DNA of 16,960 bases from Vibrio tasmaniensis 1F-187 (lineage in GTDB: Bacteria; Pseudomonadota; Gammaproteobacteria; Enterobacterales; Vibrionaceae): positions 1 to 16,960 of the forward strand of contig NZ_AJZM02000258.1 in assembly GCF_000272405.2 (NCBI RefSeq), given 5' to 3'. The position numbers and the translations under genes are program-made. The notes beneath the pieces were generated by a model. It ran no database searches and was not told the DNA's origin. It saw only the letters and a list, made by a program, of their open reading frames with translations. This document shows positions 17 through 7,819 of the stretch, piece after piece (the stretch's first letter is position 1; each line of letters starts with the position of its first letter).

Positions 17-40
17 CGGCTGTACTGCTGGGTTGTTCAT
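17..40 (-). CDS. 5' end of a gene after the sensor kinase, probably a LytTR response regulator (partial)
   Basis: Only eight codons are present (MNNPAVQP), reading off the left edge of the genuine sequence. The ATG at 38-40 is preceded by AGGA with a six-base spacer, a good ribosome binding site. The frame starts 72 bp downstream of the sensor-kinase stop on the same strand. LytS/YehU-type kinases are normally followed by their LytTR-domain response regulator, so that is the likely product, but the visible residues carry no diagnostic motif. The LytTR-like direct repeats upstream of the operon (6048-6096) support the idea. The call rests on context alone. Confidence 0.5.
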
Positions 41-112: not shown

Positions 113-1147
113 CTAGGCGGCTGCATCAGTCAACGGTAACAAGATCGTTGAGACTACCCCACCTTCAGCGTGTTCAGTAATCGTTAGGCTCGCCTTATCA
201 CCATACAGGGTTTCTATTCTTTGACGAATATTGCTTAACCCAACACCGTGACCCGTATTCGCAGAAGGCGTTTTCAACCCAGCGCCATTATCAGCCACTT
301 CAATTTTTAGCTGCTGGGATTGTTGAGTAATACGAATATTCACTTGGCCACCAGCGGCTTTGGGTTCAATACCGTGTGTGAGTGCATTCTCGACCAAAGG
401 TTGAATCAAGAACGGTGGAATCACCTGCAATTCACTAATCTCGTGTGTTTCAATCGAGAACGTTAAGCGCTCCCCCAAGCGTATCTTTTGGATATTAAGA
501 TAAGCGTCTAACAAGTCGACCTCTTGTGCGATGGTCGATTGCTCGTTGCGGCTGTTTTTCAAAGTCACACGCAATAAGTCAGTCAGTTTTTCGAGCATCA
601 ACTTGGCTTTCGCGCTGTCACTCTCAATCAACACATTGATGGTCGCAAGTGTGTTGAACAAGAAGTGCGGTTCAATTTGGCTCTGTAGTTGTTTAAGCTG
701 ACTGAGCACCACCACCTTTTCTTGATCGGCCTGACGACGCTTGGCCACTTCCAATTCGTTATCGGCACGTAACTGCTGCTCTCGGGTATAGAAATAGTAA
801 TAGCAAACCGAACAGAAGATCACACCGAGCAACACGACAGATTTAAGGTCCGAGATATTGGCTCCGAAATATCCGTTCAACCAATAGTGCGCGTTCAAGG
901 TACCAAAGGTCATCGCGATCACCATTGAGATACCCACTTCAAGCGTTCGAGATGTCCTCTTAAACAACTTCACCAAGATGAAAGAAGAACCCACGGCGCT
1001 GTAACCAAAGCCAAAACTGATTGCCAGGTTAACCGTTAATCCGCCGCCCCAAATCGTATGGGTTGTAATCGCAATAAGAACACAAAATAGCGTGGTGAAC
1101 GCGAAACTCTTAATCCATGAAAATCGACTGTTTGAAGAAGTGTCCAT
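113..1147 (-). CDS. LytS/YehU-type membrane sensor histidine kinase
   Basis: This 344-residue protein has four predicted membrane segments (about 13-33, 37-61, 71-91 and 101-121). A charged linker, probably coiled coil (122-155), leads into a His_kinase-type (LytS family) dimerisation motif, QIEPHFLFNTL, with phospho-acceptor His161. The ATPase domain follows: N box near QPLVENALTHG (249-259), G1 box DNGAG (286-290) and G2 box GHGVGLSNIRQR (299-310). It lacks the GAF and large 5TM-LYT input domains of classical LytS, so the short membrane domain is presumably the sensor. Its ATG overlaps the preceding outer-membrane protein stop by one base (TAATG), indicating translational coupling, and AAGGG lies about 8 bases upstream. 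It should phosphorylate the truncated regulator that follows. The signal sensed is unknown. Family assignment is firm; pairing with the transporter operon is inferred from gene order. Confidence 0.93.
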   Translation of the reverse strand: MDTSSNSRFSWIKSFAFTTLFCVLIAITTHTIWGGGLTVNLAISFGFGYSAVGSSFILVKLFKRTSRTLEVGISMVIAMTFGTLNAHYWLNGYFGANISDLKSVVLLGVIFCSVCYYYFYTREQQLRADNELEVAKRRQADQEKVVVLSQLKQLQSQIEPHFLFNTLATINVLIESDSAKAKLMLEKLTDLLRVTLKNSRNEQSTIAQEVDLLDAYLNIQKIRLGERLTFSIETHEISELQVIPPFLIQPLVENALTHGIEPKAAGGQVNIRITQQSQQLKIEVADNGAGLKTPSANTGHGVGLSNIRQRIETLYGDKASLTITEHAEGGVVSTILLPLTDAAA

Positions 1148-2439
1148 TAAAATCGCCCTTTGATATTTAAGAGAATCATATGACTATCGGGTAAGCTGGC
1201 GTAAGCAGAATCACTTTTACCGCCTAGAAAGCGTGCAGCAAGTTCCAAATCCAACGATGAATTGCCATTATCTAATGCTTGATAATTGAGCCACTGAGTC
1301 GCAATAAAACCGCCGTCTTGAGGAGACAACATCACATCGAATGTTGGCGTAATATCTTCAAGCCAGCCATGTGTCGAATCCAAAGACCAGTGAAACATGA
1401 TGTTGTGCTGAACCAAATTGGCGTGTTGATAACCTTGCGCGTAAGACCCTGCCAGTGATGCTGTCATCGAATTAACCGACAAAGACTCGGCACTTTCTAT
1501 TGCACTTTGCCATTCAGAATTGCTCCAAGCGCGGCTATCAAACCAATATTCCAAGACCACATTGTGACCCGTGTCATTGGCCCATGTTAGTCCTGCCAAC
1601 GCTTGATAAGCTTCGCCCTGCTCTTCAAGATAAACCGGTTTAAGCAGTATGTTAGGCTGACTGTAGCCAAGGCTTTGTCGTTGATAGACCACCGAGCCAT
1701 GAAACTCCCAAGCGAGGTTCAACACCGACACTAAACTCGCCCCAAGCAAGCCGTGACGTACATCGTCATAATAAGCGACCCATTGATATTCGTGATCGCC
1801 CACCAGGTTATAACGACGCAGCCCAAAGCCTTGTTGTTGGTTCTGCTTTTCGAATTCATTTACGTCTTGAGAAGTCCATGACGAATCGCTGTAAAGCAGT
1901 GTCCATTCTCCCGTCATATCGAACAGTGACGCCGAGGCCACACCCGCGCCCTCTTCTGCGACAATACCCACTGGGTTTTGTCGATACGGCTTGATGATGT
2001 CTAACGGTCGATAGCCATAACCCACGCCCCAATCCAAACGAACCTTACCAAGCGTAATATCAAGATAGTGGTCACCGATTAATGAATTCGACAGCTCAAC
2101 ACCACCTTGCCAAAACAACTCACGCACAATGAATTCAGATTCAAAGCTTGCGTCTTGTTGTTGAGGGTTATTGCTTAGAATATCGTTGGCTTTCACTGCG
2201 AACAGACCAAGCCAATTGTCATATCCAACCTCAAGATCCAACAAGCCATTCAAAGACTGACGATTATCAGATGGTAAAGGGCTAAATGGCGACTCTCGCG
2301 ATTCAATCGCTTCTGCACTGAGTTGCCAGTCCCACGCCAAGCTCAGATCGTCCGCTTGAATCGGGTGACTCACACAAGACAAGGCAAGCAAAGTAGCGAT
2401 TGAAGACTTAATGTGGAATCGGCGATTGGAAGCTTTCAT
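1147..2439 (-). CDS. Predicted outer-membrane beta-barrel protein of the export operon
   Basis: The protein has 430 residues from the chosen start. It has a signal peptide (about 1-29, cleavage after HPIQA), then a sequence rich in alternating polar and aromatic strands, and ends in Phe (IKGRF), typical of outer-membrane beta-barrels recognised by BamA. A stretch around 135-165 (GKVRLDWGVGYGYRP then DIIKP) recalls the WG...D.I.P pattern of DUF1302-like outer-membrane proteins found with LolA-like proteins and lipid transporters, but I cannot confirm the family. Start choice: a GTG at 2446-2448 abuts the previous stop, but the ATG at 2437-2439 has AGGTGA about five bases upstream, overlapping that stop, so the ATG is preferred. 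The gene lies between a LolA-like gene and a sensor kinase, suggesting it is the outer-membrane end of the pathway. Its cargo is unknown. Confidence 0.8.
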   Translation of the reverse strand: MKASNRRFHIKSSIATLLALSCVSHPIQADDLSLAWDWQLSAEAIESRESPFSPLPSDNRQSLNGLLDLEVGYDNWLGLFAVKANDILSNNPQQQDASFESEFIVRELFWQGGVELSNSLIGDHYLDITLGKVRLDWGVGYGYRPLDIIKPYRQNPVGIVAEEGAGVASASLFDMTGEWTLLYSDSSWTSQDVNEFEKQNQQQGFGLRRYNLVGDHEYQWVAYYDDVRHGLLGASLVSVLNLAWEFHGSVVYQRQSLGYSQPNILLKPVYLEEQGEAYQALAGLTWANDTGHNVVLEYWFDSRAWSNSEWQSAIESAESLSVNSMTASLAGSYAQGYQHANLVQHNIMFHWSLDSTHGWLEDITPTFDVMLSPQDGGFIATQWLNYQALDNGNSSLDLELAARFLGGKSDSAYASLPDSHMILLNIKGRF

Positions 2440-2448
2440 GACGCTCAC

Positions 2449-3231
2449 CTACAGCCCAGACACGCTGTTACGCGATAAGTAAGCAGGGTTGTAATACTTG
2501 TCTTCCAAGCTTTGCTCAATCACTTCGCGATACTCAATCACGGTTTTCTTGCTTGGTTGAATCTTATCGAGCAAGGTCATCGACATCACTGTGGGTAATC
2601 CATCACGCACACCTTCAGTAAACCACGCTTGTTTCGCCAGCTTTCCTGAACGCAGATAAAGATCCGCTTTAACTGGAAACGCTCGGTCTGCCGTTAACCA
2701 CAGATCAATCGATTGATAACTGGCACCCTTGGTTTTCGCCGCGAGCTTTAGGTGATGGGTATCGAGTGTCTCGCCAGTCGGCATCTCAACCTGTTGCTCG
2801 GCAACCCACTCACCTTGGTAATCTTCGCTCCAAGTGAGCGTCGAGATATCCCCCACAGAAGCTTCTCCCAATAGCTTTTGCATCGGTGTGATACGAATTG
2901 GGCGACGAGATTTCGGCATCAGTAGCCAATAATTATCTTCTATCATCAGCATCTTTTGACCAGCCTCAACGGCTGATTTAAAGACCACTAATGACTCTCG
3001 GTTTGGCCTTGTGTAGACGTTGTATTCACGGGTTTTGTCCAGTTGCTCGTCTTGATACAGCGCCACCAAAGACACTACCTTAGAGGCTTGTGCGCTGTTC
3101 AAACGATAGCTGTCTGCCTTGGCAATCATCTCAGTGACTTGTTGTGAATCAACCGCCCAGCTTGGTGTCGATACTAAAACCAGAACCAATACAGAACCTA
3201 AAACAGTGAGTAAACGAGTAAATTTATACAT
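2449..3231 (-). CDS. LolA-like outer membrane lipoprotein-sorting family protein (periplasmic)
   Basis: This 260-residue protein has a clear signal peptide (hydrophobic 7-22, cleavage near SWA/VDS at about 26). The mature part resembles the COG2834 'outer membrane lipoprotein-sorting' proteins: strand-rich, with YNVYTRPNRESLVVF (70-84), WLLMPKSRRPIRI (102-114) and a following LLGEASVGDI segment. There is no lipobox cysteine, so it should be soluble in the periplasm. LolA folds are open barrels that carry acyl chains. Next to an FtsX-type permease and an outer-membrane protein, a shuttle for lipid or lipoprotein is the natural inference. It starts 8 bp inside the permease gene's 3' end and has a strong GGAGG site nine bases before the ATG. 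It is not the housekeeping LolA (no such context). The substrate is unknown. Confidence 0.85.
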   Translation of the reverse strand: MYKFTRLLTVLGSVLVLVLVSTPSWAVDSQQVTEMIAKADSYRLNSAQASKVVSLVALYQDEQLDKTREYNVYTRPNRESLVVFKSAVEAGQKMLMIEDNYWLLMPKSRRPIRITPMQKLLGEASVGDISTLTWSEDYQGEWVAEQQVEMPTGETLDTHHLKLAAKTKGASYQSIDLWLTADRAFPVKADLYLRSGKLAKQAWFTEGVRDGLPTVMSMTLLDKIQPSKKTVIEYREVIEQSLEDKYYNPAYLSRNSVSGL

Positions 3232-4522
3232 AAACCAGCGCCTCCGTGATTGGCTTATTCACGCCTTTGCGAGCAGAGAAATAAGCTGCCAGCAAACATA
3301 TCGTCAGCACACCTAAAGTAGCGTAACCAACCAATTCTAATGAGAAGTAAATGTTGAGTGGGTAGCCTTCGGTTCGACCCGGAGGTGGTGGCATTTGGAT
3401 ATCAACCACCAGCAATAACACCGACACTAAGCCACTCACTAATGCGCCTATCGCGCTGCCAATCACAGCCAGCAATCCCGCCTCTTTTAAGAAGCCTGTG
3501 ACGATTTCAGAGGGGTAACTCCCGAGTGCCGACAAGGTGCCGATTTCACGAGTACGTTCTGTCACCGACATGGTCATAGTGTTAAACAAAGACACGAACA
3601 CCACCAATGCCATCACTGCGCCCATGATGCCGAAGATACGGTCGTAAAGATCTTTAACCTTGGTGTAGAAAAACGCGCGATCTTGCCATGGGGTGATCTC
3701 GATCTCTGCGCCTTGATCGTTTTGGCTCGCGCTATTTCGATCTAAAGCAGTTTGGATACGCTGTTGAACGGTCGAGGTCTTGTTGGTTTCAAATAGGAAC
3801 ACCGACAAGGTACTGACTTTGTCTGAGGCCAAAAGCTCTTGAGCAGTGGTGATGTGTACGTAAAGCTGACGCTTATCCAGCTCAGGCACCCCTGTCGAGT
3901 AGATGCCCTGCACCTTAAAATCAAAGGCATTCAAAGCGCCATCACTAGTAGTCGCAAGCAGTGTAACCCAATCACCAACCGCAACTTTGAGGTTACGAGC
4001 AAGGTCAGTTCCTAGCATCACTTGTGGTTCTTGGCTGTCGTATCTTGGGGATTTCACATCCGACAGGGTTTGCCCGCTGCGCACATCAAGGAAAGGTCCT
4101 TTCATATCGAACTCACGCTCATTCACGCCTGTTCCCATAAAAATGGTCGACTTGCTGCCGTTAGACACCAAACCGCTGAAATAGACTCGCGGCTGCACAC
4201 CACGCACGTCGCTGTCGCCAATAATGCTCTTGGTTAGCGCTTGAACGTTGTCCAGACCATTGCTCAGCGGCATGTCTTCGTCTTGTTCAAAGTATCCCGG
4301 CGTGCTCAAAGTAAGATGACCAGTATCTCGAGCGGTCGATTCTCTCAAAGATTCGTAGGTGTAAAGCCCGTAACCTCCTGCCGACGTCAGCGCAAATACC
4401 GCAATGGCGATAATCAATACCGAAAGCAGACTGCGGCGACCATTTCTTAATAAATTAAGCCACGCCAAACGCACCGAAGTTGGAAGTAAAAACGTGCTCA
4501 TTCTTTGTGTTAACTTGCCCAT
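3224..4522 (-). CDS. FtsX/MacB-type ABC transporter permease
   Basis: This 432-residue protein has the LolC/E-MacB plan: a TM helix near the N terminus (about 30-52), a large periplasmic domain (about 55-290), then three TM helices (about 295-317, 344-372 and 391-415). The FtsX-domain hallmark MSVTERTREIGTLSALGS lies at 318-335, and a proline-rich MPPPPGR loop at 377-383. Such permeases do not pass substrate through the membrane; they transmit ATPase motion to extract lipids, lipoproteins or peptides at the periplasmic face (family knowledge). The first ATG (4522) has GGAGG seven bases upstream and overlaps the ATPase stop by 13 bp, so it is preferred over the Met at 4501. It works with the ATPase encoded upstream and probably hands cargo to the LolA-like protein downstream. 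Confidence 0.93.
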   Translation of the reverse strand: MGKLTQRMSTFLLPTSVRLAWLNLLRNGRRSLLSVLIIAIAVFALTSAGGYGLYTYESLRESTARDTGHLTLSTPGYFEQDEDMPLSNGLDNVQALTKSIIGDSDVRGVQPRVYFSGLVSNGSKSTIFMGTGVNEREFDMKGPFLDVRSGQTLSDVKSPRYDSQEPQVMLGTDLARNLKVAVGDWVTLLATTSDGALNAFDFKVQGIYSTGVPELDKRQLYVHITTAQELLASDKVSTLSVFLFETNKTSTVQQRIQTALDRNSASQNDQGAEIEITPWQDRAFFYTKVKDLYDRIFGIMGAVMALVVFVSLFNTMTMSVTERTREIGTLSALGSYPSEIVTGFLKEAGLLAVIGSAIGALVSGLVSVLLLVVDIQMPPPPGRTEGYPLNIYFSLELVGYATLGVLTICLLAAYFSARKGVNKPITEALVYV

Positions 4523-5208
4523 GAGATCGCCTCCGTGGTTACAGCTTGTGGCGCCAGTTGACCGTCGATAAGTTCAATGACTCGATCGCAGCGCTGTGCC
4601 ATTCTTGGGTCGTGCGTTGCGACAATAAAAGTCGTGCCCATTTCGTGGCCAAGCTCTTTCATAATGTCGATCACAAGGTTGGCGGTGTGGCTGTCTAAGC
4701 TAGCGGTCGGCTCATCGGCAATCACCAAGCTTGGGTTATGGATAAGGGCTCTGGCTATCGCAACACGTTGCTGCTGACCGCCTGAAAGGTTGTCTGGACG
4801 GTGATGAACGTAATCTCCTAGCCCAACACGCTCTAACATCTCTTGAGCTCTGGTCTGCTGTTCTTGTTTTGAGCATTGGTTCAACATCAATGGGTAAGCG
4901 ACGTTTTCTAGCGCCGTCATCACAGGAACCAAATTGAAGCGCTGAAATACAAAACCCAACGACTGACGACGAAAACGTGCAGCGGCGATTTTCTCTGTCG
5001 GATATGGTTGGCCATCAATATTTATCTCGCCTCGGTAGTCCATATCCAACAATCCAAGAATATTCAAAAGTGTGCTTTTCCCTGACCCAGACGGCCCACA
5101 CAGCGCCACCATTTCACCGCGTTGGATATGTCCATCGACCCCGTTTAATGCATCAACACGTTGACCGCCCGTGACATATGCTTTGCCGATATTTTTAAAT
5201 TCAATCAT
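4510..5208 (-). CDS. LolD/MacB-type ABC transporter ATP-binding protein
   Basis: This 232-residue protein is a complete nucleotide-binding domain: Walker A GPSGSGKST (38-46), Q-loop Gln89 (VFQRFNLVP), signature LSGGQQQR (141-148), Walker B LVIADEP (161-167) with D-loop SLD, and switch His199 (ATHD). The FQxFNLxP Q-loop and ADEPTASLD are typical of the MacB/LolD/FtsE subgroup that pairs with FtsX-type permeases, and the gene overlaps just such a permease. A ribosome binding site (GAGGA) lies about eight bases before the ATG. The C-terminal Thr-Glu-Ala codons also carry the Shine-Dalgarno sequence of the permease gene. It energises the complex from the cytoplasmic face. All catalytic motifs are intact. 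Confidence 0.96.
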   Translation of the reverse strand: MIEFKNIGKAYVTGGQRVDALNGVDGHIQRGEMVALCGPSGSGKSTLLNILGLLDMDYRGEINIDGQPYPTEKIAAARFRRQSLGFVFQRFNLVPVMTALENVAYPLMLNQCSKQEQQTRAQEMLERVGLGDYVHHRPDNLSGGQQQRVAIARALIHNPSLVIADEPTASLDSHTANLVIDIMKELGHEMGTTFIVATHDPRMAQRCDRVIELIDGQLAPQAVTTEAISWAS

Positions 5209-5234: not shown

Positions 5235-5315
5235 TTCTCAAGCTCTCGCAAGCCGAAATTGAGCTTTCACAGCTGTTATTTGGCTTTGGCAACTGTTACT
5301 TGGCTTTCGCTATTA
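5235..5315. repeat. Degenerate ~20-bp tandem repeat (about 4 units) across a stop codon
   Basis: Four consecutive units of 20-21 bp lie at 5235-5255, 5256-5275, 5276-5295 and 5296-5315. The best two (ttatttggctttggcaactg and ttacttggctttcgctatta) differ at few positions, and the first two are more decayed but share the central GCTTTC/GCTCTC core. The stop codon of the upstream secreted protein (complement 5296-5298) sits exactly on a unit boundary, and the array fills most of the gap before the ATPase gene. Confidence 0.7.
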
Positions 5316-5976
5316 GGGCCTTCGCTGTCATGGTCTCGATGTTTCCGGCATCGGTATTTTCCATTTTTTCAAGCCACACCTGTGCTTGCTCGAAGTCTTC
5401 AGCACGAATCGATGCGGTAATGGCGTAACGGTAAATCCATGAGGTCGCAGCGAAATGTTGTTGTTGGAAATCATCTTCCGCAAGTAACGAGAGGAACAAG
5501 TCATAACCACGATCGAAATGGTTAAACATGTCGGGTAGCGAGGTGTAAGTAACGGCGGCCATTGCGCGAGTTAGGTAAGAATCTGGCAGCCCTTGAACAC
5601 GAGGTTGCTCATGAATCGGTTGGTCTTCGTCTTTCAGCAGCACCAGTGATTTATCAATGGTTGATAAGCCTTTCTCCACATACTTCATCTTGTTCCAAGG
5701 TAAGAACGCATCACGCCCCATCAGGGTTTCTGTGCTGCCTAGATAAACCAAAGTCAGTGGCGTAGCACCATTTTGTTGTAACGTGTCATTCAGGCGTTCA
5801 TACGCTACTTCAACCAAGTCTTCATTGCCTTGCGCGGCTTGATTATAGATATCGAGCACGTCAGAGCTTGGGTTAGCCAAAGCTAACGACGGTGCAAAAG
5901 AAACAAGCGCAATCAGTAATGAACGCTTAAGCAGAGAAGTGGTAGAGCCTGAATTAAATGAGTGTGAAGTAGTCAT
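5296..5976 (-). CDS. Secreted helical-repeat (TPR-like) protein, first gene of the export operon
   Basis: This 226-residue protein has an N-terminal signal peptide: basic LLKRS, a hydrophobic stretch of about 17-33 and cleavage near LALA/NPSS. The mature part looks all-helical, with TPR-like helix pairs (for example DLVEVAYERLNDTLQQNG and AEDFEQAQVWLEKMENTDAG). I do not recognise a named family. It is the first gene of the operon, 87 bp before the ABC ATPase gene, in a gap filled by a short tandem repeat. A periplasmic accessory or adaptor role for the exporter is a guess from position. Start: the ATG at 5976 follows AAGGGA by about nine bases. The LytTR-like direct repeats lie 70-120 bp upstream, so this is probably where operon transcription begins. 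Confidence 0.8.
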   Translation of the reverse strand: MTTSHSFNSGSTTSLLKRSLLIALVSFAPSLALANPSSDVLDIYNQAAQGNEDLVEVAYERLNDTLQQNGATPLTLVYLGSTETLMGRDAFLPWNKMKYVEKGLSTIDKSLVLLKDEDQPIHEQPRVQGLPDSYLTRAMAAVTYTSLPDMFNHFDRGYDLFLSLLAEDDFQQQHFAATSWIYRYAITASIRAEDFEQAQVWLEKMENTDAGNIETMTAKALIAKAK

Positions 5977-6014
5977 GATTTCTAATCCCTTTCAAATGTT
6001 GACGTTGAAAGGTT

Positions 6015-6043
6015 AACTAGAATTTGTCATGCCGTTTTATCAA
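6015..6043 (-). promoter_or_regulatory. Possible weak sigma70 promoter for the export operon
   Basis: On the minus strand a TTGATA hexamer (6038-6043) is followed after 16 bp by TCTAGT (6016-6021), a 4/6 match to TATAAT. It lies immediately downstream of the three direct repeats, with only four bases between repeat 3 and the -35. That is the arrangement expected for an activator-dependent promoter. The match is weak and this is a suggestion only. Confidence 0.3.
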
Positions 6044-6047
6044 TGCG

Positions 6048-6096
6048 ACGAATGGTAATTACGAGGAGTGAATGGTTGTTCGAGAGTGTGAACGGT
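6048..6096 (-). promoter_or_regulatory. Triple direct repeat, putative LytTR response-regulator binding site
   Basis: Read on the minus strand, three 9-bp repeats occur: ACCGTTCAC (6088-6096), ACCATTCAC (6068-6076) and ACCATTCGT (6048-6056). They are spaced at exactly 20 bp (11-bp spacers), about two helical turns. LytTR-domain regulators bind pairs of 9-bp direct repeats of the form [TA][AC][CA]GTTN[AG][TG] about one to two turns apart, and E. coli BtsR/YehT recognises ACC[G/A]CT[C/T]A direct repeats. These repeats fit that style closely. They sit just upstream of the operon that ends in a LytS-type kinase and its presumed regulator, so autoregulation is the simplest reading. Confidence 0.6.
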
Positions 6097-6120: not shown

Positions 6121-6147
6121 AAAAAATAGCCGCTCAATGGCGGCTAT
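6121..6147 (-). terminator. Intrinsic terminator of the chemoreceptor gene
   Basis: An 8-bp stem (6126-6133 with 6140-6147, ATAGCCGC/GCGGCTAT) and a six-base loop are followed on the minus strand by a run of T (complement of 6121-6126). It lies about 60 bp beyond the chemoreceptor stop. It also insulates the export-operon promoter from read-through. Confidence 0.85.
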
Positions 6148-6208
6148 CTTGTCATGGTCTAAATCAACTATGCTTCACATCTAAAGAAAAGGCACACTGC
6201 ATGACTCA

Positions 6209-7819
6209 TTATTTATCTAACTTAAAGAAACTTAGCTCTGAGTTGAGTTCTTTCGTCACTTCAACAACGCTTTGGTTTGCTTGTGCAGATTGATCAATGC
6301 CTTCAATGTTTTGTTGAACCAATATGTTCATATTTTCAAGCTGTGTCGATATATCTGTCGTAACGGCACTTTGCTCTTCTGATGCCGTAGCAACGATGGC
6401 ATTCACTTCTGAAATACTTAAAACCTTTTCTGATATCGAATGAAAAGATTGAGCAAGCTCATCGGTCGTAGACTTTGTTAAGCGCATCAGTTCAACGTTT
6501 TTCACCATAGATTCATCCGCTTGCTTAGATTGGTCTTGTAACTGCGCAATGATCTCTTGAATATCGATAGTCGACTGCTGAGTTTTCCCAGCCAAAGCTC
6601 TTACTTCATCAGCAACAACAGCAAACCCTCTTCCTTGCTCACCGGCTCTAGCCGCTTCAATCGCGGCATTAAGCGCTAACAAGTTGGTTTGCTCAGAGAT
6701 GTTCTTAATTACCTCAACAACACTGCTGATACGCTCTGAGTGCTCTCTAAGTAAATTCACGACCGTTTGAGTTTCTGATATTGATTCAGAAATTTCTTCT
6801 GTCGTGTCAGTTGAGTTTTTCAATGTTCCATGGCTTAGCTGAATAATGTCATTCGCTTCCATCGCTGACTGCTCAGCTCTTTGTGCGTTGTCTGCAACAT
6901 CTCTTGCTGTTGAAGATAACTCAGTCGCGGCCGTCGCGATTTGCTCTACCGATGATAGTTCATTCAAAGAGTTACTCTGGGATCGCTCTATCAGAGCTAA
7001 AGACTCTTCTTGCTTTTGGTTAATTGAATTCATGCTTACACCTGCCTGTGACAGGATATCATTCAATTTTGCAGACAGTTGAGACAAAGAATCTGAAATA
7101 GTGTCGAGCTCATTTCCACCCTCTTTCAATTTAACGTCCGATAAACGTCCATTCTCAAGGGCTCTAATCCAATTTACGATCAATGGCAAATTTCTCAATT
7201 CTCTTTTCACTAGGAAATAAGATGAGCCAGAAGCAACGATAGAAGAGAAAAGAACCAGCCACCATGAGAAAGAAGAGTTGGACTCTAAAACTGAATCAGA
7301 ATGGGCTAATTCTTCCTTAGCGACGTCCAATTGCAATGAGATCAATTCACCAAGAACGCCTCCCATATCATCAACAAGGAGATAAAGCTGAGTGATCATC
7401 TCAGAATCATCAATCATCATATTTCTATGTTTATCAAGAATTAATGGTACTTCTCGCTCCACCTTGTCTATTTTAAGTTGAAGCTCTTTTGCCAACCCCT
7501 CTTCTTCTCGTGTTAGCTGCGTTGCCAGATAATGAAGGAATAGCTCATGAGCCTCTTTCATCGCAACAGAAACACCAGAATAAAAAGCCGTCTGCTCTAT
7601 CATTCCCACATGGTATTTATTCGCCGCATCAATCACGCTTACCGCGTACAAATCCGAAATACTTTTCAAATCAGATAACGGAATGACTCGGTCCTCGTAC
7701 ACAGAGTGAAAACTGTCCATAACCTCATTTGAAGTAGCTTCGCTTTTTAAGTTGCTTACAACTAAAAAGATAGAAAAGAACAGTGGAACTAGAAGAAGCT
7801 TTGTTGATATTGATTTCAT
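6209..7819 (-). CDS. Methyl-accepting chemotaxis protein
   Basis: This 536-residue chemoreceptor has an N-terminal TM helix (about 7-23) and a helical periplasmic sensor of about 160 residues (24-184), probably a four-helix-bundle 4HB_MCP type. TM2 (about 185-204), a HAMP-like segment (205-260) and a long cytoplasmic coiled-coil signalling domain follow. The hairpin tip that binds CheA/CheW is intact: [20 protein letters not shown] and [15 protein letters not shown] (about 373-407). There is no C-terminal NWxxF-type CheR-docking pentapeptide (it ends FFKLDK), as in many Vibrio receptors. The ligand cannot be told. The ribosome binding site is weak (AGGG about five bases before the ATG). The gene is monocistronic, with a terminator downstream. 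Confidence 0.95.

Follow-up and report, generated by a model that had tools for sequence, protein, structure and literature searches.

The usual description of LytTR regulators has them binding to two repeats. In the portions of the articles cited here, those of AgrA from Staphylococcus aureus are centred at about -60 (PMC4227749) and those of autoactivating LytTR operons lie about 10 bp upstream of the -35 element; in S. mutans the period of LytTR repeats is mostly 21 (9+12), with 11-bp spacers also occurring (PMC6193735), and the YpdB sites, as contained in an oligonucleotide, have a period of 21 (PMC4847170). Three direct repeats are found with the one-component LytTR regulators RcoM and CoxC, and CoxC needs all three for efficient binding (PMC11347149). 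In common with AgrA and other LytTR response regulators, as these are depicted in the cited portions, the Vibrio operator described below consists of 9-bp direct repeats about two helical turns apart, with a centre at about -60 and a weak promoter downstream. In those portions two repeats and no third box are described, whereas the Vibrio operator has three, and its period is 20 in contrast to the 21 of most S. mutans repeats and of YpdB.

The three direct repeats are shared with RcoM and CoxC, as described in the cited portion; binding by the LytTR domain is a property of RcoM and CoxC and is predicted for Vibrio. Unlike the Vibrio system, RcoM and CoxC are one-component sensors without a kinase, the spacing is 12-13 bp, and the RcoM motif is TTCNNGCA; at the Vibrio locus, the motif is NCCRTTYRY and the kinase is a separate protein, and the combination of a TTCNNGCA-type motif with a fused sensor domain was not found. 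The LytTR Regulatory Systems HdrRM and BrsRM, according to the portion cited, autoactivate through direct repeats close upstream of the -35 element, as is proposed here for the Vibrio operon (PMC6193735). They differ from it in having no kinase and in being controlled by a membrane inhibitor encoded beside the regulator, an arrangement not seen in the relatives of the Vibrio operon, where a kinase gene precedes the regulator gene. A LytS-type kinase, a LytTR regulator and direct-repeat sites are features that the Vibrio system has in common with YpdA/YpdB and BtsS/BtsR. In contrast to these, the Vibrio regulator misses the BtsR cut-off, no LytS-type sensor domain was found in its kinase, and the two-component system is encoded inside the operon that it appears to control. 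A preliminary description of this DNA had called the third repeat unusual, for which RcoM and CoxC, with three, provide precedent in the cited portion (PMC11347149). Three-repeat LytTR operators are thus already known, and the fixed three-copy layout in Vibrio is a variant; a report of a three-repeat operator for a two-component LytTR regulator was not found in searches of the open-licence literature.

The Vibrio operator lies in a stretch of 16,960 nucleotides from Vibrio tasmaniensis 1F-187 (the window), which is one whole contig. Three 9-bp direct repeats are located there on the minus strand, with starts exactly 20 bp apart and at the positions given in the preliminary description. Together with the adjoining elements they form a rigid operator-promoter architecture, box1-N11-box2-N11-box3-CGCA-N28-TAnnnT:

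6123-6150, minus strand: terminator-like hairpin preceding the operator; upstream of it the chemoreceptor gene (6209-7819)
6096-6088, minus strand: box 1 (distal), ACCGTTCAC, predicted -93 to -85, over threshold in 69/76 operon loci
6076-6068, minus strand: box 2, ACCATTCAC, predicted -73 to -65, over threshold in 74/76 loci
6056-6048, minus strand: box 3 (promoter-proximal), ACCATTCGT, predicted -53 to -45, over threshold in 73/76 loci
6044-6047, minus strand: CGCA directly 3' of box 3, mean 1.82 bits per column
6010-6015, minus strand: predicted -10 element TAACCT; in alignment A1 (see below) all sequences share the T and A at its start and the T at its end

The hairpin separates the operon from the chemoreceptor gene. 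The -10 element was predicted from conservation after a sigma-70 scan had found no two-hexamer promoter, and no recognisable -35 hexamer was found 17 bp upstream of it. With the predicted -10 taken as -12 to -7, the first positions of boxes 1, 2 and 3 are -93, -73 and -53; the pair formed by boxes 2 and 3 has its centre at -59, and 9 bp separate the end of box 3 from the place of a -35 element. The pattern ACCRTTCRY-N11-ACCRTTCRY occurs in the window in two overlapping matches, both at the three-repeat site. Dinucleotide shuffles of the window (n=200) yielded a mean of 0.00 matches, which excludes an origin of the repeats by chance. In the genome of the strain (5.33 Mb, 435 contigs) the pair without mismatch is present solely at the three-repeat site. 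With up to 2 mismatches there were 17 forward and 18 reverse matches versus 27 and 25 for the reversed-pattern control; the relaxed matches lie below the control, and therefore only the three-repeat site stands out. The repeats and their exact 20-bp period were thereby confirmed as described, and the genome scan for the pair that the preliminary description had suggested returned exact matches only here.

Downstream of the operator, the window contains the following genes:

5296-5976, minus strand: gene 1, 226 aa, without Pfam family; predicted mRNA start near 6003
4510-5208, minus strand: ABC transporter ATPase, LolD/MacB-like, below equivalog cut-offs
3224-4522, minus strand: MacB/FtsX-type permease
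2449-3231, minus strand: LolA-like protein (PF17131)
1147-2448, minus strand: gene 5, predicted outer-membrane beta-barrel, without Pfam family; model pLDDT 87
113-1147, minus strand: gene 6, histidine kinase (PF06580 + HATPase_c)
17-40, minus strand: gene 7, first codons of a LytTR response regulator (MNNPAVQP), the remainder taken to be on contig C127 (L002)
3-16, no strand assigned: repeated 14-mer, a probable sequencing-adapter tail, not genomic

Genes 1-6 are complete in the window whereas gene 7 is cut by the assembly; contig C127 opens with a receiver + LytTR regulator gene that lacks its start. The 14-mer of bases 3-16, which we take to be a sequencing-adapter tail, interrupts the regulator gene. 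It occurs 13 times in the assembly; 8 of these copies lie no more than 17 bases from a contig start, and of its 5 occurrences on the opposite strand 2 were checked and both sit at a contig end, such that all 10 checkable occurrences are at contig ends. In searches with tblastn all seven genes were found in 74 of 75 fetched relatives, the contig of the remaining relative ending early, and in relatives the kinase gene precedes the regulator gene. The operon consequently has seven genes, not the six of the preliminary description, and ends in the LytTR response regulator instead of a LytS-type kinase. As had been noted, base 40 is the start of the regulator gene, which breaks off at the 14-mer.

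The structure model of gene 5 gives a beta-barrel, and export across the envelope by the operon products is therefore likely. The first PDB matches of the model were to AlgE with a TM of about 0.53, which reflects generic barrel similarity, and an AlgE-like function was rejected. The closest relatives of gene 1 among named records come from Vibrio splendidus, V. lentus, V. crassostreae and others, with identities of 96% and less. In V. parahaemolyticus the genes around VPA0015-VPA0021 are apparently a version of the operon, judged by content and numbering: VPA0021 is listed as a LytTR regulator for which interactions with VPA0015 (ATP-binding) and VPA0018 (LolA domain) are predicted (PMC10469919). 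That article was the only one in the open-licence literature recognised as naming members of the operon, and none was found on the operator; it concerns expression in infected cultured cells and does not mention the operator in the portion cited.

The regulator contains a receiver (PF00072, 76.2 bits) and a C-terminal LytTR domain (PF04397, 68.1 bits, cut-off 22.6), both over the Pfam cut-off, as is typical of LytTR-type response regulators. The preliminary description would have had to be abandoned if the full downstream gene had lacked a LytTR domain, which is not the case. Across 18 aligned proteins, among them BtsR, the Asp of the receiver (LDI) does not vary, nor do the HR and SR pairs in the LytTR part. 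The protein, searched without its first residues, scores 140.6 bits against the BtsR equivalog NF008677 (NCBIfam), below the cut-off of 246, whereas the other LytTR protein of the genome (L001) reaches 359.8 bits and is BtsR. In a PDB sequence search with the regulator, the best 60 of 300 matches listed were all to the receiver part. Kinases of the LytS/BtsS type have a multi-span LYT sensor domain. The kinase of the operon has the His_kinase domain PF06580, which we take to be the LytS-type kinase domain, and HATPase_c-type domains; no LytS/BtsS-type sensor domain was found in it by Pfam, a search in which the BtsS-like partner of L001, cut at its start, could not serve as positive control. 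The N-terminal part of the kinase received no domain assignment. The regulator gene is apparently divided between two frames in G101 and truncated at its start in G003, and the regulator match in G097 contains a stop (loci L136, L112 and L125); the boxes still precede the operon in all three. Breakage of the regulator in G109 and G044 was considered and dropped, since in G109 a single open frame covers both pieces and in G044 the stop may simply be where the gene naturally ends.

Conservation of the operator within the genus was examined in 76 operon loci, comprising the locus of the window and 75 relatives; gene 1 was found in 76 of the 148 genomes of the genus. The exact ACCRTTCRY-N11 pair is present in 32 of the 148 genomes, 28 of them with gene 1, and the reversed pattern in 1. 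An exact match in G108 was rejected as an operator as it sits inside an 832-residue frame. Box pairs with up to 2 mismatches in all are 20 bp apart in 74 of the 76 loci; at other distances from 12 to 39 bp the maximum was 13 loci, and at 40 bp, which is two periods, 52. The 20-bp period is the best or tied best in 68 loci. Conservation also revealed the CGCA behind box 3 and, 28 bp beyond at a fixed distance, TAnnnT; in L176 and L195 the gap from CGCA to -10 was 27 bp by eye. The counts for the three boxes given in the list were obtained by anchoring on box 3, CGCA and -10 alone and applying a 3-bit threshold. All three boxes pass together in 64 of the 76 loci and a fourth position passes in 3, for which a longer repeat array was rejected. 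Control offsets, scored by the same matrix, pass 3 bits in 0.3% of cases on average and in 6.6% at most at one offset. The matrix was built from the best pair in the same 76 loci, and the scoring is therefore not wholly independent of box 1. An alternative count with another anchor and a 4-bit threshold gave three or more boxes in 60 loci. The repeats are thus kept with the operon across relatives, the outcome on which the preliminary description had made its reading depend. Among operons without gene 1, all three boxes are over threshold in 6 of 8.

In 50 of the 54 loci of the distant set the mean information per column reaches 1.06 bits in box 1, 1.40 in box 2, 1.37 in box 3, 1.82 in CGCA and 1.46 in the -10 element, versus 0.39 and 0.59 in the spacers and 0.10 in the upstream region. 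CGCA is not conserved behind boxes 1 and 2, where mostly nCC is found. The window and 46 loci align across 88 columns without a gap (alignment A1, 47 sequences, for which 13 of 59 sequences were left out by choice as near-duplicates or for weak or missing boxes). The arrangement at the window has the marks of a LytTR repeat pair, that is 9-bp repeats, 11-bp spacers and a constant distance to the predicted -10, and it has the three phased direct repeats of the RcoM and CoxC operators. L067 (G018) has an extra box pair with TCGCA at 747-775, where a LysR-type gene ends; the operon's own operator is located 1.7 kb downstream of it.

The operator travels with the operon's regulator. An 88-bp operator model, trained on 47 loci of which 46 are among the loci counted and match in a circular manner, was matched at E<=1e-5 in 82 of 86 regulator-positive and in 1 of 62 regulator-negative genomes of the genus, and at E<=0.01 in 82 and 4, respectively. 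The Fisher value for operator versus regulator is 1.7e-35 with shared ancestry ignored. Given the training on 47 loci, only loci outside the training set test the model independently, and related genomes cannot be counted as separate events. G058 was scored as regulator-positive from a partial match and is absent from a second regulator listing. The regulator-positive genomes without a model match are G042, G068, G098 and G141. LytTR domains occur in 139 of the 148 genomes, including 53 of the 62 regulator-negative ones, and LytTR genes in general therefore do not bring the operator. In G047 and G057 the kinase-regulator pair is present, and none of the operon's transport genes was found within the 18-19 kb that surround it; box 2-box 3-TCGCA-TAATCT still precedes the kinase gene. 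The genome of the window has one operator by model search. These data strongly support the earlier proposal that the regulator controls its own operon, except for the count of six genes. They provide a precise regulator-operator code, in the form of the 88-bp model, for an uncharacterised envelope operon; 86 of 148 genomes of the genus encode the operon's regulator.

In G071, the sole regulator-negative genome with a match at E<=1e-5, a decayed operon is kept: the promoter and the ABC gene remain, and the permease is fused in frame to the LytTR half of the regulator. The fusion, at L216 6076-7473, results from an in-frame deletion that joins the FtsX-type permease to LytTR in a 466-residue frame and retains the operator. 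It is possibly a membrane-tethered LytTR protein, a product of decay or an assembly fault.

Judged from sequence, the repeats are very probably the operator of the operon's own two-component system, which would exert positive autoregulation on the seven-gene envelope/export operon. We infer binding, phosphorylation, activation rather than repression, cooperativity and a role of box 1 as follows. The membrane kinase encoded by gene 6 would phosphorylate the LytTR response regulator encoded by gene 7, which would then bind to the three direct repeats, about two helical turns apart. At the usual activating position of LytTR sites, the box 2-box 3 pair may recruit RNA polymerase to a promoter that has a -10 element and no good -35 element. 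Box 1, as a conserved extra site, should raise occupancy or sharpen the response, and the predicted outcome is positive feedback on the operon. Activation and positive feedback are favoured by the position of the pair, with its centre at -59, by the distance of 9 bp from the end of box 3 to the -35 place and by the missing -35 hexamer. The three-box LytTR operator is real and conserved and most likely autoregulatory, an ordinary principle in a layout that was not found reported.

The same regulator might bind the repeats and repress the operon, similar to CoxC, a LytTR protein that represses from three repeats overlapping the -35 element, according to the cited portion (PMC11347149). This is quite unlikely given the end of box 3 upstream of the -35 place, the lack of a -35 hexamer and a layout that fits activating LytTR sites, although the -10 on which the numbering depends is itself predicted. 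The similarity of LytTR sites to one another and the presence of BtsR (L001) in the same genome would allow the repeats to be the site of BtsR instead, which would place the operon in a pyruvate-sensing network. The BtsR binding pattern, with a period of 21, has no match at the repeats with up to 3 mismatches; as it also gave no convincing site in the genome of the window (3 places with one mismatch versus 5 for the reversed control), this is a weak test. The operator follows the operon's own regulator although LytTR genes are found in 139 of the 148 genomes, which makes control by BtsR highly improbable.

More weight has to be given to the possibility that boxes 2 and 3 alone are functional, box 1 being a remnant that is tolerated. 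Conservation of box 1 is lower than that of the other two (1.06 versus 1.40 and 1.37 bits), and it fails in 7 of the 76 operon loci. Its loss is more pronounced outside the genus: of 40 family loci, 26 have boxes 2 and 3 over threshold and 5 have box 1, which fails in 35. Since box 1 is rare there, the two-box core together with CGCA and -10 represents the more widespread form, and the third box is found mainly in the genus. All 27 named-record loci, a set that overlaps in part with the unnamed loci, have a model match (E<=0.004); 15 pass a strict three-box test and 12 fail it, 5 of them Photobacterium. None of the five Photobacterium rows has box 1, and four of the five are the four weakest model matches. 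Within the genus, by contrast, box 1 passes in 69 of the 76 loci, far above the control offsets with their mean of 0.3% and largest value of 6.6%, and it is retained by 14 of 16 rough lineages with differences at no fewer than half of the non-motif columns (72 of the 76 loci, those with up to 1 mismatch in the anchor). A remnant is therefore unlikely, and a functional box 1 in the autoregulatory operator is preferred. Conserved and yet lost here and there, the third box offers ready-made pairs of two-box and three-box promoters with which to ask for the role of a third site. More tentatively, and with somewhat less than even confidence, a fixed three-site LytTR assembly may be envisaged in which two upstream NCCRTTYRYnCC boxes and a specialised promoter-proximal box, NCCRTTYRTCGCA, are held at a strict period of 20 bp. 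In such an assembly the third site would determine the threshold of autoactivation or its steepness, and CGCA would mark the subunit that touches RNA polymerase.

At the level of the order, 17 loci were fetched from other families. The complete set of seven genes, with a model match in front, is present in L229, L230 and L241 (E 6.9e-11, 1.5e-14 and 1.5e-7), and in family f10 a box pair with TCGCA is present at 4 of 5 barrel-kinase-regulator clusters. The remaining nine include weak matches in L238 and L240, a match behind the regulator in L242 and otherwise none; an operator in front of the cluster is absent from most of the ten loci L236-L245. In genus g3 a kinase-regulator pair is located upstream of a relative of gene 1, and in two loci a box pair with TCGCA lies between them (L188 1272-1300, L200 7759-7787).

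A few genomes contain further model matches, which rejects a single operator target in every genome. A membrane protein of about 73 residues, without a Pfam family over cut-off, is encoded by 13 genes in 12 of the 148 genomes. A model match in the right direction ends within about 60 bp upstream of 10 of these genes (L246-L252, L254, L257 and L258; E 3.5e-8 to 0.0017), where 7 of the 13 genes were originally found via operator matches, 3 of the other 6 match and none was in the training set. The match is present at 9 of the 10 genes in regulator-positive genomes and at 1 of the 3 in regulator-negative genomes. A weak operator match precedes the gene of a 2TM-domain (PF13239) protein in G114 (L228 1909-1962). 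In three close relatives, G006, G018 and G146, a gene read as catalase-like, with a Pfam run on the G006 copy, is preceded by a copy of the operon's promoter stretch (L217 2606-2692, L218 2627-2702 and L225 3329-3407).
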